Shown here: piece by piece, positions 999-17,907 of the stretch
Layout: the number at the start of each line of letters is the position of its first letter
How positions within the stretch are numbered: the first letter of the stretch is position 1
Source: Bacteroides finegoldii DSM 17565
Lineage (GTDB): Bacteria; Bacteroidota; Bacteroidia; Bacteroidales; Bacteroidaceae
Assembly (NCBI RefSeq): GCF_000156195.1
Contig: NZ_GG688319.1
Location: forward strand, 251,364 to 315,363
Reading direction: 5' to 3'
DNA: 64,000 nucleotides
Translations under genes and position numbers: made by a program
Notes under the pieces: generated by a model
Databases searched by the model: none
Seen by the model: the letters and a program-made list of their open reading frames with translations, nothing else
What the model was told of the DNA's origin: nothing

Positions 999-2516
999 TT
1001 AATCAAGTTTGATTTCAATACCCAGCAGCTTCTGTATTTCAGCCAATGTTTTATCTATCTCATAATCAAGAGCTGCACGCTTCTTAAAATAATTAGCAAG
1101 CAATTCTGCAGGTGGTAAGATTTCTTCCTCATCTTTAGGAAATTTACATTGATCAAAATTACAATCAAGTGAAATCAAATCTTGAACAGAAAAACAACGA
1201 GATTTCTCATTTCCATCTTGGCTTACAATCTCTTTCCTATCGTTCCACCACTCTTTTATTGGTTGACAATGCTCTAACTTCATTGGTTTTGTCTTAGAGA
1301 AGTGCTTATATCCATCAGGCATATCAAGACGATAAAACCAAGTTTCTTTTGTTGAATACCCATCAGGAGCATCTTCAACCCTTTCATTATTGAAAAAAAG
1401 AATATTTGTAGCAATACTTGTATAAGGAGAAAAAATACTTCCAGGCAAACGAATAATAGTATGTAAATTAAAATCTTTTAATAGCTTCGTTTTAATTGCA
1501 AGCTTCGCACCGTCTACACCAAACAAAAATCCATCAGGTACAATTACTGCCGCACGACCATTGGCTTTCAAACGGTACATTATCAATACCATAAATAAAT
1601 CCGCAGTTTCACTACTACGCATATCTGAAGGAAAGTTATTTTTAACGCTCGCTTCAGTACTACCACCATAAGGTGGATTCATTGCAATAACATTAACCTT
1701 GTCGCATTCTTTAAAATCCCCAACCCTTGTACCCAAAGAATCACAATGAATAATATTAGGAGCTTCAATATCATGCACTAAAAGATTAGTGATTGATAAA
1801 AGATATGGCAAAGGTTTCCATTCTTGCCCTATTACGGCTGTCTGGAATAACTTAACATCATTTGTCGTTTTAACTTGCTTATACAAATGATTTAATGCAG
1901 ATGTAAGAAAGCCTCCCGTTCCTGACGTAAAATCTCCAAAAGACTCTCCTAGTTGAGGATTTAGTATTTCCACCATAAAATCAGTCAGTGCACGAGGAGT
2001 ATAAAACTCTCCGGCATTCCCCGCAGATTGTAAATCCTTCAAAATGCCTTCATATATATCACCGAATGTATGACGGTCTTCAACATCTGAAAAATCAATC
2101 TCATCTATGACATTAACCACTTGACGAAGCAAAATTCCATTCTTCATGTACTGGTTAAGGTCTGAAAAGATTTCTTTCACTATAGTTTTGCCTCTTGGAG
2201 TATCTTCATTTACTGGTAAGGCCTTAAGGGTAGGAAAAAGCCTTGCATTTACAAATTCCAATAAAGCGTCCCCAGTAAGTGCTTCCCCATCTGCATTATC
2301 AACTGCCCAGTTTCTCCACCTTAGCTCTTCTGGAATAATTGATTTAAATTCCTTTTTTTCACGGCGACTTTTATACTCCCACGTTTCTTCCTGTGCATCA
2401 TAAACTTTTAGGAAGAATAGCCAAACCATTTGTTCAATACGCTGTGCATCACCACTAATACCTGCGTCTTGACGCATTATATTCTGTAATCGTTTTATTA
2501 TATTATTAACTGCCAT
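999..2516 (-). CDS. hsdM: Type I restriction-modification DNA methyltransferase HsdM
   Basis: N6-adenine methyltransferase subunit (505 aa) of the type I system, which modifies host sites and forms the core of the restriction complex. An N-terminal helical HsdM_N-type region (residues 1-130) precedes the catalytic domain. S-adenosylmethionine motif I is DFTSGTGGF (195-203) and catalytic motif IV is NPPY (280-283), preceded by the conserved GEFYTPR (169-175). The gene sits 3 bp after the hsdR stop and 5 bp before hsdS, so all three are one transcript. Length and motifs are normal and nothing appears disrupted. Confidence 0.96.
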   Translation of the reverse strand: MAVNNIIKRLQNIMRQDAGISGDAQRIEQMVWLFFLKVYDAQEETWEYKSRREKKEFKSIIPEELRWRNWAVDNADGEALTGDALLEFVNARLFPTLKALPVNEDTPRGKTIVKEIFSDLNQYMKNGILLRQVVNVIDEIDFSDVEDRHTFGDIYEGILKDLQSAGNAGEFYTPRALTDFMVEILNPQLGESFGDFTSGTGGFLTSALNHLYKQVKTTNDVKLFQTAVIGQEWKPLPYLLSITNLLVHDIEAPNIIHCDSLGTRVGDFKECDKVNVIAMNPPYGGSTEASVKNNFPSDMRSSETADLFMVLIMYRLKANGRAAVIVPDGFLFGVDGAKLAIKTKLLKDFNLHTIIRLPGSIFSPYTSIATNILFFNNERVEDAPDGYSTKETWFYRLDMPDGYKHFSKTKPMKLEHCQPIKEWWNDRKEIVSQDGNEKSRCFSVQDLISLDCNFDQCKFPKDEEEILPPAELLANYFKKRAALDYEIDKTLAEIQKLLGIEIKLD

Positions 2517-2519
2517 AAA

Positions 2520-4826
2520 TTATGCTACATATAATTCGTTTTCTAAATCTTTAAGTGCTTTTTCAAATTTCTCCCATCCACCAAACAACTTAACTATCTT
2601 TTGAGGTTTACCGATTGTATTAAAAGGAGGGGTATCAAGTATATCCTCATTCTCAAATTCCAAAATGCCTTTATCAGCATATTTATCTAACAATGCTTCT
2701 AAAACTTGTTTAGCCACACCTTCATATCTAGATAAATAATCTCTCTTCTTTACATTATTAGCACGTTCCTTTCGCGTAAGTGGTTGCTTATCAAAAGCCA
2801 CATGACATATTATATCAAAAATGTCTGCATTAAGCAAATCAGGACGCTTTTCACGAACCGCATCAAGTAAAACATTGTATTCTTTAAGTTCATCAACAAT
2901 AACTTTCTTCTTATCAGCAGCAGTCCAGTTCTTTATAAACTCATCCAACGTAGCATACTTACCTCGAATATTCTTACGTGTAAAATCTGTTAAACTTTCA
3001 GTAACAAGAGTATGCCCATCAGCACCAAGATATGAAACTATTTCTGTGTTTATCTGAACATTTTTTCCATTAATGTAATATTTCTTGAGACCATATTCCC
3101 TTTGAGGTTGATCATGTGATACAGTCCGACGCGGACGATATGGAGGATACGTTTTACTCCCTCCACCTTCCAACTCTGGATCACCATCAAATTCTGGATC
3201 TTTAAACAATTGGGTCACATTCCTGAAATCAAGAATTTCAAAATGCCACTTCCCCTTATCAGTACGCAACCGAGTACCACGCCCCACAATCTGCTTAAAT
3301 TCCGTCATAGAACCTATTTCTTTATCAATAACAATAAGTCCGCATGTTTTACAATCAACACCAGTAGAAAGCATCTCGGAAGTCGTAACGAGCGTTGGAT
3401 ATGGTTGATCTGGATCTATAAAATTATCAAGCTGTTTCTTCCCAATATTCTCATCTCCAGTGATACGCATAATATAGCGAGAATCCTTCTTGCACAAATC
3501 AGAGTTATAATTAACCAAAAGTTGCCGCATCGCCTCCGCTTCTTCTATATCTGCACAAAAGATTATAGATTTTGTCATGCGTCCTATTCTATGGAGCATT
3601 TTAGTTATGCGTCGAGCAACAATATCTCGGCGTTGCATAATAACTAACTCACGTCCAAATGTTTTCCGGTTATAAAAACCAGCTTTAATGAGATTACCTT
3701 TTATATCCAACTCATCTTCCTCGGGCGTCCATCCTTCTAAATCGATATTCAAAAAAGAGTTAGTTACTCTATACGGAGCTAAAAAACCATCTTCAATACC
3801 TTGCTTTAATGAGTATGTATACAAAGGCTCATTGAAATAGTCAAGATTATTAGCTCCTTCTTTTACTTTAGGGGTTGCAGTCATACCAATCTGAGTTGCG
3901 GAAGAAAAATACTCTAACACTTTTCGCCACTCCGATTCATCTTTAGCACTTCCACGATGACACTCATCTACAAGAATCAAATCAAAGAAAGTTGATTTGA
4001 ACTCTTTAAAAGGATCGGGAATATTCTCGTCATAAGAAACTAATTGTTGATATAGAGCCATATATATTTCAAAAGAAGAGTCCATATTCTTCTTTTGAAT
4101 CTTCGTCATAACTTTTTTAAAAGGCTTAAAATCTTGAGCCATAGTCTGATCTATCAAGACATTTCTATCTGCAAGATATAAGACTCGCCTTTTTAATCCA
4201 GATTTTGTCAACCGATGAATAATCTGGAAAGCTGTAAAAGTCTTTCCTGTACCTGTTGCCATTACCAATAAAATTCGATTTTGTCCACGGGCAACAGCTT
4301 CAATTGTTCTATTTATAGCTATTCGCTGATAATAACGAGGAATGTTAGTATGAGCATCCCAATAATAAGGTTCTTCAATAGCCTTTATTTCTTCCGAAGT
4401 ATATTTTTTAGAATCACGTAAACGTTTTAACAGTTCATCAGGAGTTGGAAACTCATCTATATTAATATTAGTTTCCTTACCAGTAAGAAAATCATGCTCA
4501 ATAAAACCGTCTCCATTAGAACTGTAAGCAAAAGGTATATCCAGAATTTTCGCATAGTCCATTGCCTGTTGCAGTCCAGCTCCCACAGCTTTATTATTAT
4601 CTTTTGCCTCAACTATAGCAATAGGATTATTTGCAGAATAATGCAATAAATAGTCAACTTTCTTTCCTTGTTTCCGGGCATGAACATTCCCTTGAAATAT
4701 TACTCGCCCATCAGTAAAGTAATATTCCATCTTTATGAGTTCTTTTTGCCATCCTGCCTTTTCAACAATAGCTGGAGTTATAAAACGTAATTTTATATCT
4801 TCCTCTGTTAATGACTTCTTATCCAT
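2520..4826 (-). CDS. hsdR: Type I restriction endonuclease subunit HsdR
   Basis: ATP-dependent translocase and nuclease subunit. An N-terminal PD-(D/E)xK-like nuclease region shows VDYLLHYS...IVEAK. The superfamily 2 helicase follows, with Walker A ATGTGKT, the DECH box in LILVDECHRGS, and motif VI IVGRGTRL. The C-terminal part resembles EcoEI-type HsdR C-terminal domains. I start at the ATG at 4826 (MDKKSLTEE) rather than the upstream in-frame TTG at 4874, because a -7-like box lies at 4872-4879 and would place the TTG upstream of the transcript start. This gives 768 aa. It is the first gene of the hsdRMS operon. Confidence 0.94.
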   Translation of the reverse strand: MDKKSLTEEDIKLRFITPAIVEKAGWQKELIKMEYYFTDGRVIFQGNVHARKQGKKVDYLLHYSANNPIAIVEAKDNNKAVGAGLQQAMDYAKILDIPFAYSSNGDGFIEHDFLTGKETNINIDEFPTPDELLKRLRDSKKYTSEEIKAIEEPYYWDAHTNIPRYYQRIAINRTIEAVARGQNRILLVMATGTGKTFTAFQIIHRLTKSGLKRRVLYLADRNVLIDQTMAQDFKPFKKVMTKIQKKNMDSSFEIYMALYQQLVSYDENIPDPFKEFKSTFFDLILVDECHRGSAKDESEWRKVLEYFSSATQIGMTATPKVKEGANNLDYFNEPLYTYSLKQGIEDGFLAPYRVTNSFLNIDLEGWTPEEDELDIKGNLIKAGFYNRKTFGRELVIMQRRDIVARRITKMLHRIGRMTKSIIFCADIEEAEAMRQLLVNYNSDLCKKDSRYIMRITGDENIGKKQLDNFIDPDQPYPTLVTTSEMLSTGVDCKTCGLIVIDKEIGSMTEFKQIVGRGTRLRTDKGKWHFEILDFRNVTQLFKDPEFDGDPELEGGGSKTYPPYRPRRTVSHDQPQREYGLKKYYINGKNVQINTEIVSYLGADGHTLVTESLTDFTRKNIRGKYATLDEFIKNWTAADKKKVIVDELKEYNVLLDAVREKRPDLLNADIFDIICHVAFDKQPLTRKERANNVKKRDYLSRYEGVAKQVLEALLDKYADKGILEFENEDILDTPPFNTIGKPQKIVKLFGGWEKFEKALKDLENELYVA

Positions 4827-4871
4827 ATACCTAACACTTAACTTCTTATAATTGTGTATTATCGGAAGTTG

Positions 4872-4879
4872 CAAATCTA
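4872..4879 (-). promoter_or_regulatory. Putative -7 box for hsdRMS
   Basis: Read on the minus strand this is TAGATTTG, matching TAnnTTTG, 45 nt upstream of the chosen hsdR ATG. A TTG lies upstream but at shorter than ideal spacing, so the -33 element is uncertain. Confidence 0.4.
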
Positions 4880-5206: not shown

Positions 5207-5236
5207 TTTGAATTAAACTGTTTCTTGTTATCTTTG
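5207..5236 (+). promoter_or_regulatory. Promoter of the tandem XRE genes
   Basis: A -33 TTTG at 5207-5210 and a -7 TATCTTTG at 5229-5236 are separated by 18 bp. The predicted transcript would start near 5242 and give a leader of about 25 nt to the ATG at 5267. Confidence 0.65.
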
Positions 5237-5266
5237 CCTAGACGTATTCATTTAAAGAACAATAAT

Positions 5267-5674
5267 ATGGATGTTGAAATAAAAGAGAAAGAAAACCGGA
5301 GACATGTCGGACGCAATTTACAAAGGATTCGTGTATATTTAGGCATGAAACAGGAAGCGCTGGCTGCCGATCTTGGTGTAAATCAGCAGGTCATTTCAAA
5401 GATTGAGAAACAAGAGGAAATAGAAGAAGGCTTTCTAAAAAGAATTGCTGAAGTATTGGGAATATCCGAAGAAGTCATTAAAGACTTTGATGTTGAAAAG
5501 ACGATTTTCAATATTAATCATCATAATTATAAGGATGCAAATATCTCTGAAGGTGCTACTACATACGCCATCGTTCAACAAATAAATCCACTTGAAAAAA
5601 TAGTTGAGTTATATGAGCGTTTGTTGAAAAGTGAGCAAGATAAAATTGAGATCCTGAAAAAATATATGAAATAA
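5267..5674 (+). CDS. XRE-family helix-turn-helix regulator (first of a tandem pair)
   Basis: 135-aa regulator. Residues about 12-70 form a Cro/C1-type HTH (LQRIRVYLGMKQEALAADLG ... QQVISKIEKQ). The C-terminal tail (EKIVELYERLLKSEQDKIEILKKYMK) is a predicted amphipathic coiled coil for oligomerisation. I use the ATG at 5267; an in-frame TTG at 5225 overlaps the promoter and cannot be the start. The following gene is a clear paralogue 35 bp downstream with the same layout, so the two are probably co-transcribed. The position between a restriction system and the inverted-repeat element suggests control of one of them, but the sequence does not show which. Confidence 0.85.
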   Translation: MDVEIKEKENRRHVGRNLQRIRVYLGMKQEALAADLGVNQQVISKIEKQEEIEEGFLKRIAEVLGISEEVIKDFDVEKTIFNINHHNYKDANISEGATTYAIVQQINPLEKIVELYERLLKSEQDKIEILKKYMK

Positions 5675-5709
5675 TCACTACTAGATTCAGCAATCTAATA
5701 TATAGAAGA

Positions 5710-6108
5710 ATGGAAACAATAGAAAATATAAAATCAAATCACCTTCACCTTGGAAAAAAGATAGAACGTGTACGCAGACTTCGCGGTATGACTCAAACGG
5801 AGCTAGGCGAATTGTTAGGAATAACCAAGCAAGCTGTTTCAAAAATGGAACAAACCGAGAAAATTGATGATGAACGATTAGAAAAAATCGCCTCTGCATT
5901 AGGAGTTACTACCGACGGATTGAAAGAGTATAACGAAGAAACGGTTTTATATAACACAAATAATTTTTACGAGAATTGCGGTGTAAAAAATGCAATTGGT
6001 AATAACCAAACATTCAATAATTTTCCCATAGAACAAACGATTGAACTCTTTGAGAAACTGTTAGAGAAACAGAAAGAACAATTTGAGAGCTTAAAAAAAG
6101 AGAAATAG
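5710..6108 (+). CDS. XRE-family helix-turn-helix regulator (second of a tandem pair)
   Basis: 132-aa paralogue of the upstream regulator. The HTH is at about residues 13-70 (IERVRRLRGMTQTELGELLGI ... QAVSKMEQTEK), followed by an Asn-rich linker (YNTNNFYENCGVKNAIGNNQTF) and a coiled-coil tail that starts IEQTIELFEKLLEKQ. The reading frame stops just after an A7 run at 6093-6099. A -1 shift in that run opens a further 59 codons of coiled coil ending at 6278 (separate entry), so the protein may be longer than annotated. Confidence 0.83.
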   Translation: METIENIKSNHLHLGKKIERVRRLRGMTQTELGELLGITKQAVSKMEQTEKIDDERLEKIASALGVTTDGLKEYNEETVLYNTNNFYENCGVKNAIGNNQTFNNFPIEQTIELFEKLLEKQKEQFESLKKEK

Positions 6109-6278: not shown

Positions 6279-6367
6279 GTATCCCTAATTACCAAATGTT
6301 GATAAGAAATCCCTATTACATACAAATAAAACAATCCCAACGCTTCCCATTCCCAAAATAAAGTCCT

Positions 6368-6375
6368 ACTTTTGT
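6368..6375 (+). promoter_or_regulatory. Putative -7 box of the DUF6078 gene
   Basis: TACTTTTG fits the Bacteroides -7 pattern 59 nt upstream of the ATG at 6435. I see no good -33 partner. Confidence 0.35.
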
Positions 6376-6434
6376 GAAGAATTCTGTTTGCTATATTTAC
6401 AACAGTATTTCACAAATAAAATAAGCCCAACAAG

Positions 6435-6869
6435 ATGAAAGAAGAACCCGACAGTCTGTCTGTCCCTTACAATTTTGCCCGTTGCTTCAACGCTCAATGT
6501 CCACAAGCCCCCAAATGCCTGCGCCACATAGCTACACAACTTGATACAGCCGACAACCTATATATCACTATCATTAATCCGGCACGTTATCCTGCGGATG
6601 GGAATCAGTGCGAATGTTTCAAGACTGCTGTCAAAGTTCATGTGGCATGGGGACTAAAACGGTTGCTTGACAGAATCCCTTATGAAGATGCGGTCAGTAT
6701 CAGAATACAAATGGTCGGACACTATGGAAAAACGGGATATTATCGGTTCTATCGTGGAGAACGGGGGCTTATGCCTAAAGACCAAGCCTACATCAGACAA
6801 TTATTCCGTAATAAAGGGATAAAAGAAGAACCAACTTACCAACGCTACACAGAAGAATATATTTGGTAA
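6435..6869 (+). CDS. DUF6078 family protein
   Basis: 144 aa, function unknown. The N-terminal third has a tight Cys/His cluster (ARCFNAQCPQAPKCLRH, then NQCECF) that could bind a metal. The middle is a conserved-looking helical and strand region with VHVAWGLKRLLDRIP and GHYGKTGYYRFYRGERGL, followed by a basic tail. I recognise the family as a Bacteroidales-specific DUF; no role is known to me. It converges on the VirE-type gene, and its stop codon is only 4 bp from the outer end of the left 100-bp inverted repeat, so it is either just outside that element or a passenger beside it. Confidence 0.75.
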   Translation: MKEEPDSLSVPYNFARCFNAQCPQAPKCLRHIATQLDTADNLYITIINPARYPADGNQCECFKTAVKVHVAWGLKRLLDRIPYEDAVSIRIQMVGHYGKTGYYRFYRGERGLMPKDQAYIRQLFRNKGIKEEPTYQRYTEEYIW

Positions 6870-6873
6870 GTTG

Positions 6874-6973
6874 CTGTCATCTGTCACAGTTTAGGAGTTA
6901 ATAGTTTAGTAATAAACCGATAAGCCCGTGACAGCAAGAGGTGACAGCAGGGTGATGGCATTTTTGCCGTCAC
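6874..6973 (+). repeat. Left 100-bp inverted repeat of the VirE element
   Basis: Begins CTGTCATCTGTCACAG (6874-6889), then a 38-bp spacer, then two direct copies of GTGACAGCA (6928-6936 and 6940-6948). The inner end is a hairpin with arms GTGATGGCA and TGCCGTCAC. It overlaps the last codon and stop of the VirE-type gene, so on transcripts of that gene the hairpin lies at the 3' end. Confidence 0.85.
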
Positions 6974-9060
6974 CTGGTTATTAGTCTTACAACATGATAA
7001 AGCGTACCGCTACGCGTATGTTTGGAAGGTATTTCTTGCTTTTTCAGTATTCTTCCGAAGGAATTAACCCTCTTGACAGACATCGGGATTGAACTGCCTT
7101 TTTGAATATCCTCCATAATCTCCGCTGGAGACAACCACTCCCCTTCTTCAGGCTGTGCGGCACGAAAATAACGGAAGAAAAGTTGCTCTTCCGGCGGGAC
7201 TTGTTCAAATTCACGGTTGTTTTCCATCATGATCTTTTCTTCCTCCTGATCGAACCAGTAACGTTCGCCATGTTCCAGTTCATACATAGCTTGTGCGTAA
7301 AGCTGCTCATAGTCTATCGGACGGTTGGTATCAATCACTCCGGTCACTTCGATGCAAATAAAACGACGGCTGCCGGAAGGGTCGGTCAACAAGTCTTTCT
7401 GATTACTTGTGGCTATGAATGAGGCGTAACGACGCATTTCAAGCACGGCACTGCCATGAGGTTTCTTCACATTCAATACTGGCTTTTGCAGAATATGTTT
7501 CAGAAAGCCTTGTTGTGTCGAACTCACCTGGTCAAATTCATCGATATTGATAAGCGCAAAACGATTGAGGTAAAGTTCAGCATCTTTCTTTCGGGAAAAA
7601 TCAATACTGTCGGTATAGTAGGAACGCTCGGAAGGAGGCATTATGCTCCGGCAAAAGGTGGATTTACGTGTTCCTTGCGGTCCGACGAGTAAGGGCGAAA
7701 CACTGTTTGCATACTTTTTATTGCTTCCTTTCCAATGAGAAACCATATTGAGGAACCAACGGTGGAACAAATCCATCCAATACGGATTCTTACAAGGGAC
7801 GGTGGCTGCCAATGCACGAATACGGTCTTTACCGTCCCATGCGGGAAGCCGGTAGAGAAAATCTTCCAACGGGTTGAATACAGGCACGCGATTGGAGTAA
7901 ATATAACGGCTAATATCCCTGTCCCACAAGGGGATGCCTTCCATTTGTGCATCCAAAGCAATGCTGTTCAACGCACGTTTGTCGAGAGGATTGAAGCGGA
8001 AACGGAAAGAAAGCCTTTCACGATATTCTACCTCGCCAATTTGGGTGTTATGGCGGAATTCATAGCGGCGTTTCATGAATTCTTCAGTCTGCAAGGCGAG
8101 TTGCTGCTCTTTGCTTAGGCTGATATTCTTGCCGAAGCCTTTGCACTCGGTATATATATTGCCAATCATTTGCCGGATAAGCTCTTCTTGTTTATACATA
8201 TAGAAGTGGAAAACGGTACGTTTCACGACTTCTTCTTGCGGAAGTCCCGAAGCAAAACAGTTTTTAGCCAGTTGGACAACTAAAGGATGCCATGTGTCTT
8301 CGCTCAATTCGAGCCCCGCTTCCCTAAGATCGGCATAAGCTTTCCGAAAAGCGGCTTCGAAAAGCATCAGGAAGGCATTTTCCGCATCATATCCCGGTAC
8401 GGCACGAGTCAATGGAGATTTCTCCGCCTGAACCGCTTCACGGAAAGTGGTTTCTTCGGGCATGGATGACGGTTGAGAGAGATAAAATTGAACAGAATTC
8501 GGACGATATATGATGTCCGGATCGTGGGATAATCGCGAATATTGTTCCAGAGTCGGTTCTTTGGGAAGTATATCGAATGGGATTTGGGGCTGATAACATT
8601 TCACAGCCAGTCGATAAGCATGGGCGTGGAATAGTTCCGCTTCTTCCCGTGTTTTGGGAAGCGAGTTGTCCGGTCGGGTGAAGGTAGTCCATATTTTCAC
8701 CGTTTTACCACTTGAACCCATAAAAACACAACGGGTTTGTGGCTGCTCACAGGCTTTTTGTTTCACTAAAGCGATTTCCGACTTATTGGACAAGGGACCG
8801 ATGGTCAGTTCTACAATACCGTTGTAGTTTTTCATCTGTTTCTGACCGTTTACCTTACGGAATTCAGCGGCAGGAATTATCTTGGGCAGTTTATCGGCAA
8901 ACATACACCGTTCATCGGAAAGAACATATCGCAGATGCTCTCTGAATGTAGAAACAGGACGGGATTTTATTTCTGTCTTTATCTTATTTACCAGTATATC
9001 AAGATCCATTACGCTGAGCGCTATCGTATCTTCATTCTTACGAAATTGAGTAATTTTCAT
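6970..9060 (-). CDS. BT4734/BF3469-family VirE-domain protein (primase-polymerase-like plus P-loop helicase-like)
   Basis: 696 aa. The N-terminal ~240 residues match what I know as the BT4734-like domain, related to archaeo-eukaryotic primase-polymerases. The C-terminal half is a VirE/VapE-type P-loop ATPase with Walker A GPQGTRKST and Walker B ALINIDEFD, followed by a sensor-like ATSNQKDL. This pairing is that of replication initiators in plasmids, phages and satellites. I chose the ATG at 9060 (MKITQFRKN) over the in-frame start at 9150, because family members as I recall them begin near this motif and the extension is atypical. The gene is alone between the two inverted repeats, with the iteron array about 190 bp upstream of its start. 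It probably acts on the repeats or iterons as initiator; biochemical function is not established. Confidence 0.8.
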   Translation of the reverse strand: MKITQFRKNEDTIALSVMDLDILVNKIKTEIKSRPVSTFREHLRYVLSDERCMFADKLPKIIPAAEFRKVNGQKQMKNYNGIVELTIGPLSNKSEIALVKQKACEQPQTRCVFMGSSGKTVKIWTTFTRPDNSLPKTREEAELFHAHAYRLAVKCYQPQIPFDILPKEPTLEQYSRLSHDPDIIYRPNSVQFYLSQPSSMPEETTFREAVQAEKSPLTRAVPGYDAENAFLMLFEAAFRKAYADLREAGLELSEDTWHPLVVQLAKNCFASGLPQEEVVKRTVFHFYMYKQEELIRQMIGNIYTECKGFGKNISLSKEQQLALQTEEFMKRRYEFRHNTQIGEVEYRERLSFRFRFNPLDKRALNSIALDAQMEGIPLWDRDISRYIYSNRVPVFNPLEDFLYRLPAWDGKDRIRALAATVPCKNPYWMDLFHRWFLNMVSHWKGSNKKYANSVSPLLVGPQGTRKSTFCRSIMPPSERSYYTDSIDFSRKKDAELYLNRFALINIDEFDQVSSTQQGFLKHILQKPVLNVKKPHGSAVLEMRRYASFIATSNQKDLLTDPSGSRRFICIEVTGVIDTNRPIDYEQLYAQAMYELEHGERYWFDQEEEKIMMENNREFEQVPPEEQLFFRYFRAAQPEEGEWLSPAEIMEDIQKGSSIPMSVKRVNSFGRILKKQEIPSKHTRSGTLYHVVRLITR

Positions 9061-9250
9061 TAATTTGATAATAAATTGTTTTGTCAGCGCCTTTGTGATC
9101 GTTGAGACTGCTAAATTACTCATATTATTCGGGACCGACAAGAAAAACAAGATTTTAATATAGAAAATTATTGATATATCAAGTGCCTATTTAGCCGAAA
9201 GAAACGGGATCGTTATCACTCAATTACGGTTCAAGTTATTTTTCTCTGCT

Positions 9251-9398
9251 TGAAACTAAAGTTTCAGCTAGGAGAAACTCTAGTTTTATCGGCAAGAAAC
9301 CAATAGTTTCAAGTAATTGGAACTAGAGTTTCAAGCGTATGAAACTAAAGTTTCAAACCGCAGAACCAACAGTTTCACGCCTTGAAACCGTTAGTTTA
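9251..9398. repeat. Seven-unit palindromic iteron array, ~22-bp period
   Basis: Seven interrupted palindromes of the form (T/A)GAAAC-N4/5-GTTTCA have centres near 9258, 9280, 9303, 9325, 9347, 9369 and 9391, so the period is 21.5-22.5 bp, about two helical turns. Units 1 and 5 are perfect (TGAAACTAAAGTTTCA); unit 2 has GTTTTA, unit 4 TGGAAC, unit 6 AGAACC and unit 7 a degraded right arm. The array lies between the VirE-type gene start and the right inverted repeat. Same-face spacing implies cooperative binding of a dimer, as in plasmid origin iterons or a repressor operator array. It is not CRISPR: the spacers are 5-6 bp. Confidence 0.88.
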
Positions 9399-9481
9399 AA
9401 GGCAGGGCACAACTCATAAGTACGGGGATAATAAATTGAACGACTTATCTTTCTATAGCTGATACTATCAAATTCCAAACA

Positions 9482-9489
9482 GTATCTTT
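9482..9489 (+). promoter_or_regulatory. Isolated -7-like box
   Basis: TATCTTTG on the plus strand just inside the right inverted repeat. No gene follows for more than 2 kb on this strand, so it would make only a short RNA through the right repeat and its hairpin. It may be chance. Confidence 0.25.
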
Positions 9490-9511
9490 GATTTTTTCTT
9501 TGTTTTTTGGG

Positions 9512-9611
9512 GTGACAGCATTATTGCTATCACACTGCTGTCACCTTGTGCTGTCACGCTACTAAGTTCTTATACTCTGCAAGTTAGATTATAATCTGTG
9601 ACAGATGACAG
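9512..9611 (-). repeat. Right 100-bp inverted repeat of the VirE element
   Basis: Reverse complement of the left repeat in layout: outer 16 bp identical, 38-bp spacer, GTGACAGCA twice, and the inner hairpin with arms GTGATAGCA and TGCTGTCAC. Relative to the left copy a G-C pair of the stem has become A-T on both arms, while an interior T-G mismatch is kept. This compensatory change indicates selection for folding in RNA or single-stranded DNA. Confidence 0.85.
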
Positions 9612-9834
9612 ATATATTTTGTTTTTTATTTCATAAGGGGGCTAGTCTTATTTCACAGGGGACAATTATTCCGTCATCGTATCATATTCCACAATCTTCT
9701 CCTTACATAGACTTTCAGTAATATCTTTCAGAATATCTACGCATCCGTATTTTGAGATTTGATAACCTTACAAAGGTACGAACGTTGCCATCTCCAAACA
9801 ACAGAGATACAGAAAAGCTTATAATAAAGTATTT
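9612..9834. other. Non-coding stretch between the right inverted repeat and the SWIM gene
   Basis: No supported gene. A minus-strand TACCTTTG box at about 9774-9781 could drive transcription toward the VirE-type gene through the right repeat and iterons, giving a leader of about 700 nt; this is speculative. Confidence 0.3.
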
Positions 9835-11620: not shown

Positions 11621-12481
11621 TTACTCTTTTATATAACCTTCTTGTTCATACCCTCTTCTGTATTTATGAATCATTGCCACCAATGGTCTTAAACGTTCGT
11701 CAGAAACCAACATAGCCCTATAACGCAAATACTGATTATCATAAAGCTGCCGGTTTCCGTCCTTGAGGCGTTTCTTCACATCCGCAGGAATGAAAAATTC
11801 CGCACGATTGCCCAATTTTACATAGAATTCATTTAAAAAGATAGAAATGCCAGCCAAATCTATGTCTCCGAAATGAATATAGCGATTGGGGATTATCTTT
11901 AGCCAGTTACACAAATCCTTCGATTGCGGATAACGGGACACGAAAAGAACTTTCATTCCTTCAAACAAGTACTTTTGGGCACGGATATGCTGGAAATTCT
12001 CTCCATTCTCTATACCCACTACTACGACATCTTCAGGAATACGGAAATATTCGTAATCCTGCATGAAAATAGAAGTGCCTTGCAAGGGAGAAAGAACACA
12101 TGGTTCGCCATGAAAAGTAGCTTCTATAGGCGTATAACAATTGAGGAGAAAACCTTTGAACGTACGGGTATATCTCAGTTTAGAGTCCCCCGCCTTCGCC
12201 ACTTGCTCCGAACGCGACACTTCATCCGGACAGTTCTTCATCTCAATCCAATCTTCCAGCTCCATGCCGGAAGTATAATTCTGGGAGATGTAGATACGGC
12301 ATCCTTCCGGGTCAATCATACGAAAACTACGCTTACTCCCTCGGGGAACAATAGTGATGATTCCCTCATCCATTAATCTATTTGCTATCAGTCCATCAAA
12401 CTTTGTGTAAGGTATGAGCTCGCCGCCCAGCATTTTCAGAACCAGCCTCGCCATCGCCAATGTAAATAAACTGCCACTCAT
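11621..12481 (-). CDS. jetD: Wadjet nuclease subunit JetD (Toprim/Spo11-like)
   Basis: 286 aa. JetD cuts circular DNA after the SMC complex has extruded it. The C-terminal half shows Toprim signatures: acidic motif GIENGENF with E158, and GDIDLAG with D206 and D208, which coordinate the catalytic metal in topoisomerase VI A-like nucleases. The N-terminal ~120 residues look like the winged-helix arm of the DUF2220/DUF3322 class. Its ATG overlaps the jetC stop in an ATGA arrangement (4 bp), so translation is coupled. It is shorter than JetD of the best-studied systems, which fits a smaller N-terminal module. Confidence 0.88.
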   Translation of the reverse strand: MSGSLFTLAMARLVLKMLGGELIPYTKFDGLIANRLMDEGIITIVPRGSKRSFRMIDPEGCRIYISQNYTSGMELEDWIEMKNCPDEVSRSEQVAKAGDSKLRYTRTFKGFLLNCYTPIEATFHGEPCVLSPLQGTSIFMQDYEYFRIPEDVVVVGIENGENFQHIRAQKYLFEGMKVLFVSRYPQSKDLCNWLKIIPNRYIHFGDIDLAGISIFLNEFYVKLGNRAEFFIPADVKKRLKDGNRQLYDNQYLRYRAMLVSDERLRPLVAMIHKYRRGYEQEGYIKE

Positions 12482-15400
12482 TTTTCTATCTTATTATAGG
12501 TTAACAATGGGACAACCTGGGTATTTGACCGCCCGTCTTTACTCAATAAATAGGTATAACGATAATCTTCCACATTGTAAGTAGTGGGAGAACTATTTAC
12601 CAACAATATATTCCGGCAATTGGCAAAGTCCAAAATACCTTTCACATTGTTGGGGTGTAACTTGCCTATTTCATCCATCATACAATGGATTTTAAAGTCA
12701 CCAAACTTACGTGACGCCTTTTCTTTGAATACATTAATCAGCATGATATTGACCATTGCTTTTACCAGAATATCTGTACCGTCGGAACCTACATTGGCAA
12801 TCTTCTCCACCCATCCCGTGTCATTATCATTCTCTTTCACGCGAAACTCCAGTTTGAATGTATCGGCAAGCGCCAACCGTCTGCGTCCCGGCTCGTCAAG
12901 CAGGAATTTCATAAACGACAACAAATGCCGGACAGCCATCGCATTGACATCTTCACGGGAATCCTGCGAGAACAAGTCAACCTTTCCCATATTATATTGG
13001 TTCTCATCACTAAACCGTTTAATCTCCAGCAATAACTGCATCAGTTTATCGCTGCTCTGAAGCGGGCGAAGAGCTATTTCCTTTATTACTCCGGCAAAAT
13101 TCCGCTTGACAAAATCGTCGTTGATATCCTTTATTGTTCTGTGTATCTCGCTTTCATTACGGGTCAGTCCTCCCACTTCCTGCGAAATCCGGCGGATTAT
13201 ATCCGTATACCGTTCACTGATATGTTTCTGATAATCGGAAATCTTATCATTATCTACAAACTCGCACAGATTGGAAGCGAAATCATAGTAATCCTGTTCT
13301 CCAACCAGTTCCGTACGGAAATGAAACGTGTTTTTTGACGAGAAGTTTCCATTGAACTGCGTCACCGCTTTCTTGAATTCTTCTGTTTTTCTGATGGTGG
13401 ATACGATGAGAGACTTCAATTCTTCCACTATAACATCGCAACTTTTCCGGGTAGGCTTCTCTCCTATTTCCGTCACAGAAGGCGGACAGAAAGTTTCATC
13501 TTTCCGGAACATATCCACTTTTTTCAATCCGTCCTCCAATAAGTGCAATTCTTTGCCAATCCGCTCGAGATGCTCGTCCGCCCCTTTTTTCTGGACCTGC
13601 AACTTCTCCTTTTTCAGATCGAAACGTTCGTCCAATGCAACTAGCTTCGCATCCTGTTCTTTCTTCCGGCTTCGCGTAGCAGGTTCTTTATCAAACAGTT
13701 CCTCCTTGTCTCTTTCATAAAAAAGAACTTGCGGGCGGGATTTACCTATATAATCTAATTCTTTATTTATTTCGGCAAGCCTGTCATCATACTTGCGGAT
13801 AGTGACCGTATCAGCACCCTTTCCATTCAATTCATTCTCCTGCACCTGCTTCAATTCCTTTTTCCGCTCCGCAGTTTGCTGTTTCATCCGCTCTATCTCT
13901 TGCTGAATGCCGGCAACAAACTCCTCCAGTTCCTTCCGGAGTTCCGTCCTGCTATCATTATACACTTTCCGGCAAGCTTTCAACAGTTTTTCCCGTTCCG
14001 CCAAATGCTTCTCCTTCTCGCCTTCCGCCACATAAAGACGATGACCGATATCATTCAGTTGCGCCTGTAATTCTTCGGTACATCCTCTTTTCCATTCCTC
14101 CTCTTTCGTCTTCCATGAGGCGTAATCAGCCTGCAAATTCTTCAATTTTGCAGGAATCTGCATTCGCTCAGCTTCCATCAGATGTTGTTCTTCCAAAATA
14201 CTATGTATTTGCTTCGAATACTTCTTCTCCAAAGAAGAAACAGCTTCCCCCTCTTCTTCCGTCAGTCGGGTGAGACGGTCGGTACAGAGTTGCCGGGCTG
14301 CTTGTTGCCTGTCGCGCTCCTGCTTCATTTCCTCGGGAGTGCGGACAGAACGCTCGATTGCTGTCAGATTGAGTGAAACACCGAACAAAGTAGCTTCCTT
14401 ATTCACTAATTGAGGTTGTAGTTCATTGTTGTACAACACCAGTTCCTCATCCGCCACCTTGCCTATCGTCTCCTGCCAATCCGGTTTGTTCTTCTCCAGC
14501 CATTCACACAAAGAACCTTTTCGTTTCTCAATCAAGGCATCCAATGTTTGCAACTGTTCTTCAATCGCGCTCCGTTCTTTACGAACGGTCTCCATCTTTG
14601 CCTGAAATTCCCATTTCAATTTTTCCACTTTCCATTCACACTCCTGCCTCAACTGCTTTATTTCTCCTTGTTGCTGACGGATGCTATGTTCCAGTTCCTT
14701 GTCCTTTTTGCGCAGTTCGTTGATGCCGTCTTCACAATCGGACATTTCCTTTTGATGGGGATGTTCGTATTTCACCTTTTGAAGTTTCAGGTTACACTGT
14801 GCCTGTTCATCGCGCAACTGCCGGATACGATTATCCACAGTCTGCACTTTCTCTTCTTGCGTTGCCCTTACTTTCTCTTCTTCCACACGAAGTTGTTGCA
14901 TCAATTCCTCCTGCTTGCCGGCAATCTCCGCATTCCGAGCATTTATCCGTGCTTGCTGGCTATTCTCAAAAGTACGGAAATCAGCTTCCAGTTTCTCAAA
15001 CAACAATCGGTACTTACTCAATACATCCTCATAAGCTCTTGTCAGTTCCGATTTCATATTCCGGACTTGCTCCAGTTCCTGAATCAGTAATTCTTCGCAA
15101 GATACCCGTTTGATGATTTCTTCAATCTGCATCTGCTCGTAATGCAGACGTTTCTCACGTATCTTTTTGAGCAAATCGTTTATTATACCTATATCCCTAA
15201 TCAAACCATCACGCTCATTGGTGTACTTTTGTTGCAGTTCACCCATAAGCCGCAGCAACCGTTCACGTTCCGTCTCCGCTTTAGCCTGTTCTTCCTTCAC
15301 TAACGGAATCTCATGCAAAGCCTGTTTCTCCGCAAAGTTAAGCTCCGCACGCCCTTCACCAATCTGCTTTTGAGTATAAATCAAGTCACGATAGGCGTTC

Positions 15401-16146
15401 ATTACTTTCTCCGCCATCTTCCGGACAGGCACTTCTCCATTCTTGTTCTTTGTAAACCAAAGCATCACGTCCCTGTATTCCTGCTCGAATTCCTTTATCT
15501 GGCTACGATAGAAGTCCAAATCGACAGAGATATCCTCATCACTCATCGAACGGATAATGGTATCTTTTATAAAATCAGCATCCAGTTTGGAATTTAAAAA
15601 GACGTTCTGTATCGTACGGGGAATATTCTGATATTTTGCACTTTCCACAATGGCAAACTTGCGGTAGGGTATCATTTCATGCTTGCGGTTATTACCGAAA
15701 ATAATGTCCCGATACATTTCATAGCTAGTCACTTGTGCAGTAATCTGAATCTTCGAACCGATATGTTCGCGGATGCGTCCCCACTCGGAATGTACCACAT
15801 TGTGTTCGTCAATGAACCAGTCCTGTTGGAATGGCGCATCAATAAAACGGAAAAACACCCGTCCCTGGGATTTGGCAGCTACCACACAATACGCCCCATT
15901 CTCCCGCATCACCTCATAGATAATGTAAGAATTGGCGTATGGAAAGTAAAAAGCATCGAAGCTTTTCTTCTCCTTCGGAATACCCAGTCTTAGTTTGTCA
16001 GCATTATAAAAGAATAGGATGGCACGGAGCAGCGTACTCTTACCGACACCTTGCGTACCTATAAAATGTACATTCCCATCCAACTTCACTTCCGCATACG
16101 GAATATGGGCACTGTTCAGAAAAATAATCTTATTCAGGTATCTCAT
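12478..16146 (-). CDS. jetC: Wadjet SMC-like ATPase JetC (MukB/SbcC type)
   Basis: 1222 aa condensin-like motor. Walker A is GTQGVGKST (residues 30-38). Long coiled-coil arms run through the middle with a hinge region near the centre. The C-terminal head has a Walker B-like MMDEIG followed by NILLVNSSPTT. The start is the ATG at 16146 (MRYLNKIIFLNS), which overlaps the jetB stop by 17 bp; an in-frame start at 16230 would overlap jetB by 100 bp and adds residues unlike the conserved SMC N terminus. With JetA (kleisin-like) and JetB it should form the loop-extruding complex that recognises small circular DNA. Confidence 0.93.
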   Translation of the reverse strand: MRYLNKIIFLNSAHIPYAEVKLDGNVHFIGTQGVGKSTLLRAILFFYNADKLRLGIPKEKKSFDAFYFPYANSYIIYEVMRENGAYCVVAAKSQGRVFFRFIDAPFQQDWFIDEHNVVHSEWGRIREHIGSKIQITAQVTSYEMYRDIIFGNNRKHEMIPYRKFAIVESAKYQNIPRTIQNVFLNSKLDADFIKDTIIRSMSDEDISVDLDFYRSQIKEFEQEYRDVMLWFTKNKNGEVPVRKMAEKVMNAYRDLIYTQKQIGEGRAELNFAEKQALHEIPLVKEEQAKAETERERLLRLMGELQQKYTNERDGLIRDIGIINDLLKKIREKRLHYEQMQIEEIIKRVSCEELLIQELEQVRNMKSELTRAYEDVLSKYRLLFEKLEADFRTFENSQQARINARNAEIAGKQEELMQQLRVEEEKVRATQEEKVQTVDNRIRQLRDEQAQCNLKLQKVKYEHPHQKEMSDCEDGINELRKKDKELEHSIRQQQGEIKQLRQECEWKVEKLKWEFQAKMETVRKERSAIEEQLQTLDALIEKRKGSLCEWLEKNKPDWQETIGKVADEELVLYNNELQPQLVNKEATLFGVSLNLTAIERSVRTPEEMKQERDRQQAARQLCTDRLTRLTEEEGEAVSSLEKKYSKQIHSILEEQHLMEAERMQIPAKLKNLQADYASWKTKEEEWKRGCTEELQAQLNDIGHRLYVAEGEKEKHLAEREKLLKACRKVYNDSRTELRKELEEFVAGIQQEIERMKQQTAERKKELKQVQENELNGKGADTVTIRKYDDRLAEINKELDYIGKSRPQVLFYERDKEELFDKEPATRSRKKEQDAKLVALDERFDLKKEKLQVQKKGADEHLERIGKELHLLEDGLKKVDMFRKDETFCPPSVTEIGEKPTRKSCDVIVEELKSLIVSTIRKTEEFKKAVTQFNGNFSSKNTFHFRTELVGEQDYYDFASNLCEFVDNDKISDYQKHISERYTDIIRRISQEVGGLTRNESEIHRTIKDINDDFVKRNFAGVIKEIALRPLQSSDKLMQLLLEIKRFSDENQYNMGKVDLFSQDSREDVNAMAVRHLLSFMKFLLDEPGRRRLALADTFKLEFRVKENDNDTGWVEKIANVGSDGTDILVKAMVNIMLINVFKEKASRKFGDFKIHCMMDEIGKLHPNNVKGILDFANCRNILLVNSSPTTYNVEDYRYTYLLSKDGRSNTQVVPLLTYNKIEK

Positions 16147-16687
16147 CTTGCACCTCCTCTGAAATTGTGATACAATCAACCAAGTCCTCCATATAATGGA
16201 AAGCCGACAATACTTTATACGTCCCGTCAAGTTCGTTTTCTTTCTCTATCAGTCCTATACTCTCCAGTTCTTTCAGCAGTTTGCCGACTACTTCATCATA
16301 TTTCTTCTTATCCGAAAACAGTTTGGTTGCCTTTTCTTTCAGTTCGATATCGCATCCTATCTGAATCTCAATATCAGCAGCACGAAACAGAAAGCCCGGG
16401 CCGAATGCCGAATGATAGGTTTTCAGGAAACTCAGGTAATCAATCCACTTCTGAATTGCTTCCAGTTTACGTTCTAAGTCGACTTTCGATTCCTTGCGAG
16501 TAAAGTAGTAATAACCGTCACCACCTTCCAGATAAAAACCGATGCCTTTGTAGTAATCATAATAATCGGGCAAATCTTCCTCAATGGCATCATACAAGCG
16601 TTTCACTTGGGTAGAGACACTATTGGAAGAAATGAATCCCCCTTTGCTAAGTATATTAAATATCTCTTCAGTATATTTCATGGTCAT
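16130..16687 (-). CDS. jetB: Wadjet MukE-like subunit JetB
   Basis: 185 aa, small and acidic, in the position and size of the MukE/KITE-like subunit that binds the kleisin. The N-terminal half is helical (EEIFNILSKGGFISSNS), and the region from about 120 resembles a winged helix (DEVVGKLLKELESIGLIEKE). I assign it mainly from context, directly between jetA and jetC. It may correspond to the DUF6063 type of JetB, but this is recalled, not shown. It ends 17 bp inside jetC. Confidence 0.85.
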   Translation of the reverse strand: MTMKYTEEIFNILSKGGFISSNSVSTQVKRLYDAIEEDLPDYYDYYKGIGFYLEGGDGYYYFTRKESKVDLERKLEAIQKWIDYLSFLKTYHSAFGPGFLFRAADIEIQIGCDIELKEKATKLFSDKKKYDEVVGKLLKELESIGLIEKENELDGTYKVLSAFHYMEDLVDCITISEEVQDEIPE

Positions 16688-16710
16688 CTGTTTTTAGTAT
16701 TCAGCATATA

Positions 16711-17907
16711 TTATTTGGCATATATTAAAGGGTATTCCACTTCGTCGGAAATTTCATAAGTATCCGTAAAGCGAAGTTCGTCGGCATACTGTGACGCCAG
16801 TTGGCAGAAAAAGATTAATTTCTCTCCACGTGTCACCTCTTTCCGGTAGCGATAGTTCATCACAAAAGAGAACAGATGGGTGCTGGACGCCATAAATGAA
16901 TTATGCACTTCCTGCAAGTTTACGGTATCTATCATTTGCGACTGCCCATCCAGATATCCTTCCGGAATGGCATCTGCCAGTTGTTTCATTCCTTTCGGAG
17001 AATTTTTCTGCCGCGCGACAAGTTTCTTCAAAATCTGAAAAGCCTCATCGGAAGTCCGTAGATTATCAATGGAAAGCTTGATGCGATAACCGACCTGCGG
17101 CTCCATCCAGACAGGATTTTTTTGTGCGACAACAGAACGGATACTTGTATGTTCTTCCAACAAGAACTGGTCTTTCAAGTACTTCAACTTCTTTACTTTC
17201 TCAAAGATACGGTTCTGATAGTCAATGAGATTCAGGTAATGGATGATTTGTTTCTGGATTTCAATCAGGTTATGGTACGAGTCATTTAGCTGAAGTTTCA
17301 CATCACTAACTACATTCCGCATTTGTACGTCCATCGCCACCCGGAAGAAAACAGGCTGTCCGTAGTCTATCAATTCCTCACTTTTACGGATCAGCAGAGC
17401 AATATTATTCCGTTTCTCATCAAGCCGGACGAGTTTGGTTTTCTTTATCTTATAATTCGGTTCGTTCTTATAAGTATTATCCATGTTCCTTTTCAAGTCC
17501 ATCACATTGCGGACTGTAGTCAGAGCAATGTTTTTCAGGCAGCGTTTCACTTCACGCTGGTAGTTGTATTTACGTTGCTCGTTATTCTCTTTCAAGTAAT
17601 AGTCAATGTTTTCATTCAGTCGCATCAGGTAATCCTGCACGAAAGATACATTGATTTCTTCATTTACTTCGAGCACATCTTCAAAGAATTTCAGATAGAT
17701 ATCTTCCATTTCCAGAAAGTCACCAGTATCCCGGATAACCCCATAGTCAATCAGATAGCGGATACGCTCTTCTTTGTACTCCGTCATTTCAAGCGCATAA
17801 TCGTAACGGAACGAAAGAGATTTCCGTTTAGCAAACATTTCTTTCAAGAGTTCTTTCTCCCGGTCCAGACTTTTGACAAGTTCTTCTATAGAACGAAAAG
17901 TGCTCAT
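16711..17907 (-). CDS. jetA: Wadjet kleisin-like subunit JetA
   Basis: 398 aa. JetA is the MukF-like kleisin that bridges the two JetC heads. The N-terminal part contains a winged-helix-like stretch (RYDYALEMTEYKEERIRYLI, then DYGVIRDTGDFLEM), followed by long helices (EEINVSFVQDYLMRLNENID ... EVKRCLKNIALTTVRNVMDL) and a C-terminal ordered domain. It is the first gene of the operon, with 23 bp to jetB. The assignment rests on gene order and fold pattern; PF18982-type JetA proteins of Bacteroides look alike as I recall them. Confidence 0.87.
   Translation of the reverse strand: MSTFRSIEELVKSLDREKELLKEMFAKRKSLSFRYDYALEMTEYKEERIRYLIDYGVIRDTGDFLEMEDIYLKFFEDVLEVNEEINVSFVQDYLMRLNENIDYYLKENNEQRKYNYQREVKRCLKNIALTTVRNVMDLKRNMDNTYKNEPNYKIKKTKLVRLDEKRNNIALLIRKSEELIDYGQPVFFRVAMDVQMRNVVSDVKLQLNDSYHNLIEIQKQIIHYLNLIDYQNRIFEKVKKLKYLKDQFLLEEHTSIRSVVAQKNPVWMEPQVGYRIKLSIDNLRTSDEAFQILKKLVARQKNSPKGMKQLADAIPEGYLDGQSQMIDTVNLQEVHNSFMASSTHLFSFVMNYRYRKEVTRGEKLIFFCQLASQYADELRFTDTYEISDEVEYPLIYAK

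Follow-up and report, generated by a model that had tools for sequence, protein, structure and literature searches.

Inverted iteron modules around an initiator-helicase-like gene of Bacteroides finegoldii, and gene-less relatives of the unit dispersed in Bacteroides genomes

The RAYT gene is flanked by inverted repeats. TnpA-REP/RAYT proteins co-evolve with their dispersed cognate repeats (accessible part of PMC8266576), and the Rep protein of Staphylococcus aureus pathogenicity islands (SaPIs) recognizes iterons just downstream of its gene through its C-terminal domain (accessible part of PMC7581432). Here we analyzed a 64,000-nt stretch of Bacteroides finegoldii DSM 17565 (contig NZ_GG688319.1, positions 251,364 to 315,363; "the window"), in which a unit of about 2.74 kb has inverted repeats of about 100 bp as its ends and a single initiator-helicase-like gene inside. 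Like RAYT/REPIN, the system pairs a protein with cognate repeats that are dispersed and co-evolve with it; unlike RAYT/REPIN, it has a VapE helicase with a domain of the archaeo-eukaryotic primase (AEP) type rather than an HUH nuclease, iteron-cluster modules of about 100 bp around a palindrome array, and several types per genome that can be combined in one gene-less (solo) element. With SaPI Rep/PriRep1 (PDB 7pds) and Cch2 of the staphylococcal cassette chromosome mec (SCCmec) it shares a self-loading helicase of the same predicted fold and iterons directly downstream of the gene; unlike in those systems, two inverted modules enclose the gene, solo modules are dispersed, there is no satellite genome and AEP motif I is mostly degenerate. 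Terminal inverted repeats, non-autonomous derivatives and two internal-deletion remnants recall insertion sequences (ISs) and miniature inverted-repeat transposable elements (MITEs), from which the system differs in having no known transposase and no consistent target duplication. Since no HUH nuclease and no satellite genes were found, we assigned it to neither RAYT/REPIN nor SaPI. Our literature survey found no description of such repeats, or of inverted repeats around BT4734/VapE-type genes, although its coverage of subscription journals was partial and it is not proof of absence; the accessible parts of PMC5704556, PMC7366714 (palindrome arrays), PMC5862659, PMC8266576 and PMC7581432 contain no description of these repeats.

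The left end of the unit consists of an outer block at 6874-6889 (plus strand; CTGTCATCTGTCACAG, two direct iterons of the type called T1 below), an AT-rich spacer at 6890-6926 and an inner block at 6927-6974 (plus strand) with two inverted iterons, GTGACAGCA..AGGTGACAGCA, and a hairpin at 6951-6974. The right end has the inner block at 9511-9558 (minus strand; hairpin at 9512-9533), the AT-rich spacer at 9559-9595 and the outer block at 9596-9611 (minus strand). The outer blocks match at 16/16 bp in inverted orientation, as an earlier, sequence-only reading of the window had stated. That reading had also given inner blocks of 46 bp with about 83% identity and diverged spacers of an equal 38 bp; the 83% was borne out (as complementarity), as were the equal length and the divergence of the spacers, while the blocks measured 48 nt each and the alignment gave spacers of 37 nt. 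With up to two mismatches allowed, the 16-mer occurs just twice in the window (0.02 occurrences expected; none of 100 shuffles contained two). Both inner blocks fold into hairpins, and where one copy pairs GGC with GCC the other has AGC and GCT, a compensatory change. The left repeat runs over the gene's stop codon into its last codon. In the interval from the start codon to the right repeat, positions 9240-9400 hold an array of GAAACTnnAGTTTC-like palindromes, several of them at 22-bp spacing. An A-rich stretch (9612-9640, read on the minus strand) continues outward of the right outer block. Outside the unit there is a 17-bp direct repeat (16/17; 6796-6812 and 9661-9677), whose significance is limited to this unit and its close relative L022; it was not used as a target-site duplication.

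The only gene between the repeats, as previously claimed, lies at 6973-9060 on the minus strand (stop codon 6970-6972) and encodes a protein of 696 aa with the Pfam domains BT4734-like_N, VapE-like_dom and, C-terminally, DUF3874. Its N domain belongs with the BT4734-like AEP family (PF08800, 155.7 bits against a cut-off of 22.4). AEP primase motif I is hhhDhD/E (accessible part of PMC5862659); the corresponding place in the window protein reads VELTIG, with T and G aligned to the two aspartates. In a departure from the BT4734-like AEP family, the strict motif was kept in just one of 97 aligned proteins (L197) and lost in the other 96, so that the self-replicating unit first proposed is not supported. 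Both motif places were acidic in 11 of the 97 proteins and neither in 50; DID is retained in two further PF08800 proteins that the B. finegoldii genome encodes (in L012 and L016). Judged from these alignments, the catalytic motif of the primase domain appears mostly degenerate in the family. Across 52 sequences there is little or no variation in the helicase motifs, which in the window protein are GPQGTRKST (Walker A), LINIDEFD (Walker B) and a conserved GSRR.

An AlphaFold model of the window protein had a mean predicted local distance difference test score (pLDDT) of 84 and a predicted template modelling score (pTM) of 0.56, a value that leaves its domain arrangement uncertain. The best structural match of the model was SaPI PriRep1 with double-stranded DNA (7pds, E 2.3e-15), with further matches to the C-terminal region of NrS-1 and the African swine fever virus (ASFV) PrimPol; a sequence search against known structures returned 7pds only (E 1.2e-12, residues 390-602). 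The proposed likeness to replication initiators was thus recovered by sequence and by fold, and the protein resembles initiators of the VapE/D5 type, SaPI Rep-like, insofar as sequence and a predicted model can tell. PHROGs matches were phage helicases and primases, and the PrimPol model of PADLOC matched the N domain. Among all its matches, which were confined to BT4734-like_N, VapE-like, DUF3874 and related helicase/primase models, there was no transposase or recombinase; the Pfam and PHROGs profile matches included no HUH Y1 nuclease domain. The downstream module stands directly at the stop codon, which would be the place of candidate iterons as for SaPI Rep. With two direct iterons, an AT-rich spacer of about 37 nt, two inverted iterons and a hairpin, the module looks like a SaPI-type replication origin.

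The unit is a member of a large Bacteroidales family with dispersed gene-less relatives, which had gone unremarked in the sequence-only reading. Searching genome contigs, we kept 80 of 100 relatives, corresponding to 75 loci (76 with the window). For each locus, the 1800 bp upstream were aligned to the reverse complement of the 400 bp downstream and compared with 100 shuffles; five of the 75 loci were left out (contig edge, no clear gene or alignment error), so that 70 loci and the window were tested. Flanking inverted repeats scoring above the maximum of the 100 shuffles were found at 38 of the 70 other loci (39/71 with the window), where about 0.7 loci would be expected to pass by chance (one in a hundred per locus). 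Scores of at least 45 were reached at 35/70 loci (36/71 with the window), against null maxima with a median of 30 and a highest value of 39; three of the 39 passing loci (L034, L064 and L072) exceeded their thresholds by just 2-3 points. A lack of the repeats around homologous genes, which the sequence-only reading had named as a refutation, was not what we found: the 16-mer itself is lineage-specific, but more than half of the homologous loci tested have inverted repeats of their own. Of the 11 proteins with both motif I places acidic, eight were at repeat-testable loci and three of these passed (L046, L075 and, barely, L072), so a strict tie between loss of the motif and possession of repeats is not supported.

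The end words differ by lineage, and the layout of direct iterons, AT-rich spacer, inverted iterons and hairpin recurs. Nine word types were named: T1 CTGTCATCTGTCAC, that of the window, T2 TATTGTCACTTGTCAC, T3 CTGACAATA, T4 CTATCACCTATCACC, T5 ATCTGCCATCTGCAAC, T6 CTTGCACCTTGCAC, T7 CCCTCATACCCTCA, T8 GCTCCCATGCTCTCAC and T9 ATCTCTCATA. Spacing was measured in 32 ends of 16 chosen units. The direct iterons of a pair are mostly 6-9 nt apart, and in 17 of the 23 ends that carry the typed word in both orientations, the first direct and the first inverted iteron are 51-58 nt apart. The idea of a discrete unit with constrained spacing has therefore been strengthened, because distant homologues have the same layout with unrelated words. 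Six Bacteroides genomes read in detail contain 4-8 family genes each, with open frames of 690-770 aa; databases name their products only "BT4734/BF3469 family protein" or "VapE domain-containing protein".

We compared end modules among 35 units with a score of at least 45 and an aligned protein. The two ends of the same unit matched with a median score of 73 in these units, which had been selected by score. Between different units, matches of at least 45 were found in 0-1% of pairs per bin below 70% protein identity (954 ordered pairs), in 12% at 70-80%, in 47% at 80-90% and in 88% of 74 pairs above 90%. The correlation between ends and protein was nearly equal for the N domain, the helicase and the C-terminal part, so the determinant of specificity could not be placed in any one domain. 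By comparison of sequences, then, each lineage has its own modules, the two modules of a unit resemble each other, and the geometry is similar despite unrelated words.

Cognate repeats are also dispersed in the same genome as the gene. Solo elements, in which end modules surround a palindrome array without a gene, were found in seven genomes (G000, G001, G009, G012, G021, G030 and G086), and the array of the window unit is of the same kind as their core. In the B. finegoldii genome, near matches to T1 ends without a gene lie between queC and queF (L018), beside uvrA (L019) and beside an outer-membrane protein gene (L021); in all three cases an array like that of window positions 9251-9400 follows. 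Eight arrays with the exact palindrome were found there, the other five being those of the window unit, of L116-L118 and of L119. L116, L117 and L118 (G000, contigs C10, C20 and C23) are near-identical solos with a common right flank; L117 ends at the contig end, and the right flanks of L116 and L118 run into sequence that we take to be 16S rRNA. Because of these flanks the three may be homogenized copies, and we set aside the notion of three fresh transpositions. Arrays of other palindromes (CACGGCCGTG-like and TTCACTAGAGTGAAC-like) occur at L122:14660-14800 and upstream in L011 and L010; by eye, they are near start codons of family members, in the position of the GAAACTnnAGTTTC array. A strict search for palindrome chains at other unit types was discarded as too strict, since it found none, even in the window unit. 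The arrays are not CRISPR (clustered regularly interspaced short palindromic repeats) arrays, as they consist of 14-nt palindromes with gaps of about 8 nt, where a CRISPR array would have unique spacers some 30 nt long; no search for cas genes was made. The orphan repeats described in the accessible part of PMC5704556 (24-bp repeats, 39-nt spacers) are unlike them as well.

For the typing of ends, we fetched 14 arrays without a gene from G086 and six from G001. G086 has 16 arrays with the exact palindrome, of which we excluded that of its T1 unit and one about 1.9 kb from the gene L210. At least one module was present in 19 of the 20 arrays. The same type stands at both ends of L220 (T1), L222 (T4), L224 (T5) and L232 (T1); L217 (T4/T5) and L227 (T4/T1) are mosaic. 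Gene units were read as T1, T4, T5, T6 and T7 in G086, where seven of eight full-length genes were read for end types and T4 rests on one downstream end (L210), and as T1, T2, T3 and T8 in G001; no type was consistent at both ends of L213 and L214 (G086) or of L196 and L197 (G001). Solo module ends fitted resident gene types in 19/19 cases in G086 and in 7/9 in G001 (queC-queF included), compared with 6/19 and 6/9 when the genomes were swapped; this fit counts as support and not as a formal test, because the types were defined post hoc, T4 rests on one end and ancestry is shared. Modules without a gene thus surround palindrome arrays elsewhere and are mostly of types that have a gene in the same genome. 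By eye, the inverted repeats of solos (e.g. L220, L222, L224 and L227) seem to reach an A-rich 30 nt or so further outward, ending CTCTAYATA-like; the true termini may thus lie outside the iterons.

At queC-queF, 26 of 30 fetched loci hold both genes; six of the 26 spacers contain an element (487-631 bp), 18 are short and plain (11-122 bp), which makes them candidate empty sites, and two have other filler. G086 also has an element there (L227). The G001 element has T2 in place of T1 as its left module here, and in G030, no T1 gene and no T1 module at queC-queF were found.

As regards movement, the solo L224 of G086 is absent in G012. The empty site was identified from two neighboring matches of its flanks, which meet at a terminator-like T-run; the inserted stretch has imperfect direct repeats at its borders, with a possible TTGT duplication. 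For the four other solos tried, no empty site was found in 15 genomes, and when the joined flanks of all five were compared with these genomes, no alignment truly crossed the join (one overran it by 2 bases).

Copies of the window unit were sought in 149 genomes of the genus, one per species. The exact 16-mer was found in 11 genomes, five of which (G000, G021, G086, G091 and G127) have it as a facing pair spanning 2736-2738 bp, and proteins at least 92% identical to the window protein were found in 11 genomes, its own included. The word and the gene thus each occur in 11 genomes, nine of them common, and this co-occurrence was not used as proof, as it is largely circular, the word being part of the unit. 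The left flank (6300-6873, with the DUF6078 gene) is present at 85% identity or more in 13 genomes, namely the 11 with the protein, where the helicase gene is directly beside DUF6078, and two (G146 and G082) with remnants. The sequence-only reading had suggested looking for an empty site in relatives; none was found in these 13 genomes. For the window copy, the variation observed is loss in place, and its constant position beside DUF6078 with no empty site counts in part against the sequence-only reading.

Taken together, the unit and the solos have the look of a system for selfish DNA or repeat maintenance that has not been described before and that relies on a DNA-replication helicase, not on a transposase. 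Our best reading, to which we give a probability of roughly 0.55, is that of initiator-helicase units with non-autonomous derivatives, RAYT/REPIN- or IS/MITE-like, with ends like a SaPI origin. The protein would bind its own module as a self-loading hexamer, and the bound protein would melt the AT-rich spacer; local unwinding or copying would then start between the modules, and copies or derivatives would occasionally be fixed at other sites (compare the empty site of L224 beside the T-run), giving rise to autonomous units and non-autonomous derivatives, as in RAYT/REPIN or IS/MITE pairs. More tentatively, and with the odds somewhat against it, gut Bacteroides may harbor mobile or selfish DNA of a new kind, in which origin-bounded units are moved or multiplied not by a transposase but by an initiator helicase with a disabled primase domain, with several specificities per genome served by shared mosaic gene-less elements that carry modules of two initiators around a common array.

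A number of observations weigh against the reading as initiator-helicase units with derivatives. Thirty-two of the 70 loci had no significant repeats in the flanks searched, some of them at contig ends; in the B. finegoldii genome, L011 has an IS-like gene upstream and L010 lacks a downstream module, by eye. The distance between first direct and first inverted iteron fell outside 51-58 nt in 6 of 23 ends (range 44-77; L066 upstream 65, L039 downstream 68, L088 downstream 44, L050 upstream 75, L046 downstream 77 and L048 upstream 73), and nine further ends lacked one orientation of the typed word. Units of the window type adjoin the same DUF6078 gene in 11 of 11 genomes. The two remnants represent different internal deletions in which the gene and the right module are gone and part of the array is kept: in G146 (L098), the left end breaks off at the position equivalent to 6907 and continues at 9240 in the array, and in G082 (L256), it breaks off at 6881 and continues at 9301. 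Several species have retained the element at queC-queF, which would fit a host function too. Many solos have two different end types or just one, unlike a simple two-ended transposon. Two solo ends of G001 (T4 and T5) and the T1 ends of G012 have no matching gene among the units read and in the homologue list of the 149 genomes. Neither are the palindromes strictly tied to the gene: exact palindromes per strand numbered 43 in G086, 27 in G012, 24 in G001, 17 in G021, one each in G030, G022 and G034 and none in G026, while G026 has seven homologues and G030 five. When 150-bp flanks of 52 elements were locally aligned in both orientations, no consistent target-site duplication emerged; direct repeats with p<=0.01 were found at three elements, namely the solo L224 and two that represent a single locus, the window unit and L022, its relative at 99%. 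No nuclease or recombinase was seen that could join new copies to the chromosome, and movement, replication and binding are deduced from sequence comparison.

Near the unit, the DUF6078 gene (6435-6869, plus strand) is convergent with the helicase gene and ends 4 bp from the left end; DUF6078, a neighbor at 25 of the 76 compared loci, may be a partner or cargo gene. To its left are two adjacent genes of XRE-type helix-turn-helix proteins (5225-6108, plus strand) and the methyltransferase and restriction genes of a type I restriction-modification locus (999-4874, minus strand). On the other side, four genes (11621-17907, minus strand) resemble a Wadjet (JetABCD-like) locus, for which PADLOC gave weak JetC and JetD matches only, and adjoin a SWIM-domain gene. 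The unit therefore sits between two defense loci.

This position lends some weight to the principal rival, a domesticated chromosomal system with a host function (local replication restart or amplification, control of the nucleoid or of expression, or phage defense) whose repeats spread passively. The match of the N domain to the PADLOC PrimPol model agrees with such a role, as does the queC-queF element: seven genomes from different species share its location, and its end words change while the architecture stays. Moreover, at least one homologue, L010 of the B. finegoldii genome, has no downstream module by eye and has kept its open frame. Against this stand the 64 of 149 genomes of the genus, some of them incomplete, without a homologue match at E<=1e-50, and the several lineage-specific variants per genome, which look like selfish diversification. 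We regard a host function as unlikely, though it deserves serious consideration.

It is improbable that the elements are non-autonomous ones moved by an ordinary transposase encoded elsewhere, with the helicase gene as cargo. Long inverted repeats at the termini and derivatives without a gene are typical MITE features, and the genes next to or within the units vary: a divergent HU-family gene is enclosed in some (e.g. L048; HU at 22/76 loci) and DUF6078 adjoins others. However, the end types track the helicase lineage, the helicase gene is the constant part, and no consistent target duplication was found. Moreover, the 12 neighbor families present at four or more of the 76 loci and scanned with Pfam (rarer neighbors were not scanned) included no transposase, integrase, capsid, packaging or partition gene; the ten besides HU and DUF6078 are ordinary chromosomal ones, e.g. 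SusC/SusD-type, glycogen debranching, MarC and rhomboid.

The same scan bears on the view that the unit is what is left of an integrated plasmid or of a SaPI/P4-like phage satellite, a replication module whose ends are a paired origin; the sequence-only reading had offered the core of an integrated plasmid or satellite as an alternative. The closeness to SaPI PriRep1 in structure, the phage helicases and primases among the PHROGs matches and the SaPI-like placement of an iteron module immediately after the gene (accessible part of PMC7581432) would suit such a derivation. But none of the scanned families is of a satellite kind, although one record (L123) has site-specific integrases some kilobases from the unit. 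Three plasmid records with the unit show ordinary chromosomal neighbors and look like chromosome stretches, and carriage by a virus was rejected too, as two fecal-virome contigs are linear, without terminal overlap, and have other genes beside the unit. We know of no satellite with inverted modules on both sides and dispersed solo modules. A former satellite is thus doubtful, slightly more so than a foreign transposase. That the repeats are simple operators, i.e. autoregulatory binding sites flanking a normal gene, can practically be dismissed, for although the modules are built of repeated short words and one of them precedes the gene in the 5' intergenic region, its equal stands at the stop codon, many other loci have modules without a gene, and the hairpins are kept.

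The solos lie between ordinary genes, such as queC and queF. If the protein acts on the end modules in trans, units and solos would form a repeat-protein system with a recognition code, in which protein lineage is set against iteron word with nine words at hand. To our knowledge, no repeat-protein system of this type was known before. If true, it would account for one class of the interspersed repeats found in a major gut genus, and it would raise the question of how an initiator helicase without a nuclease spreads DNA.

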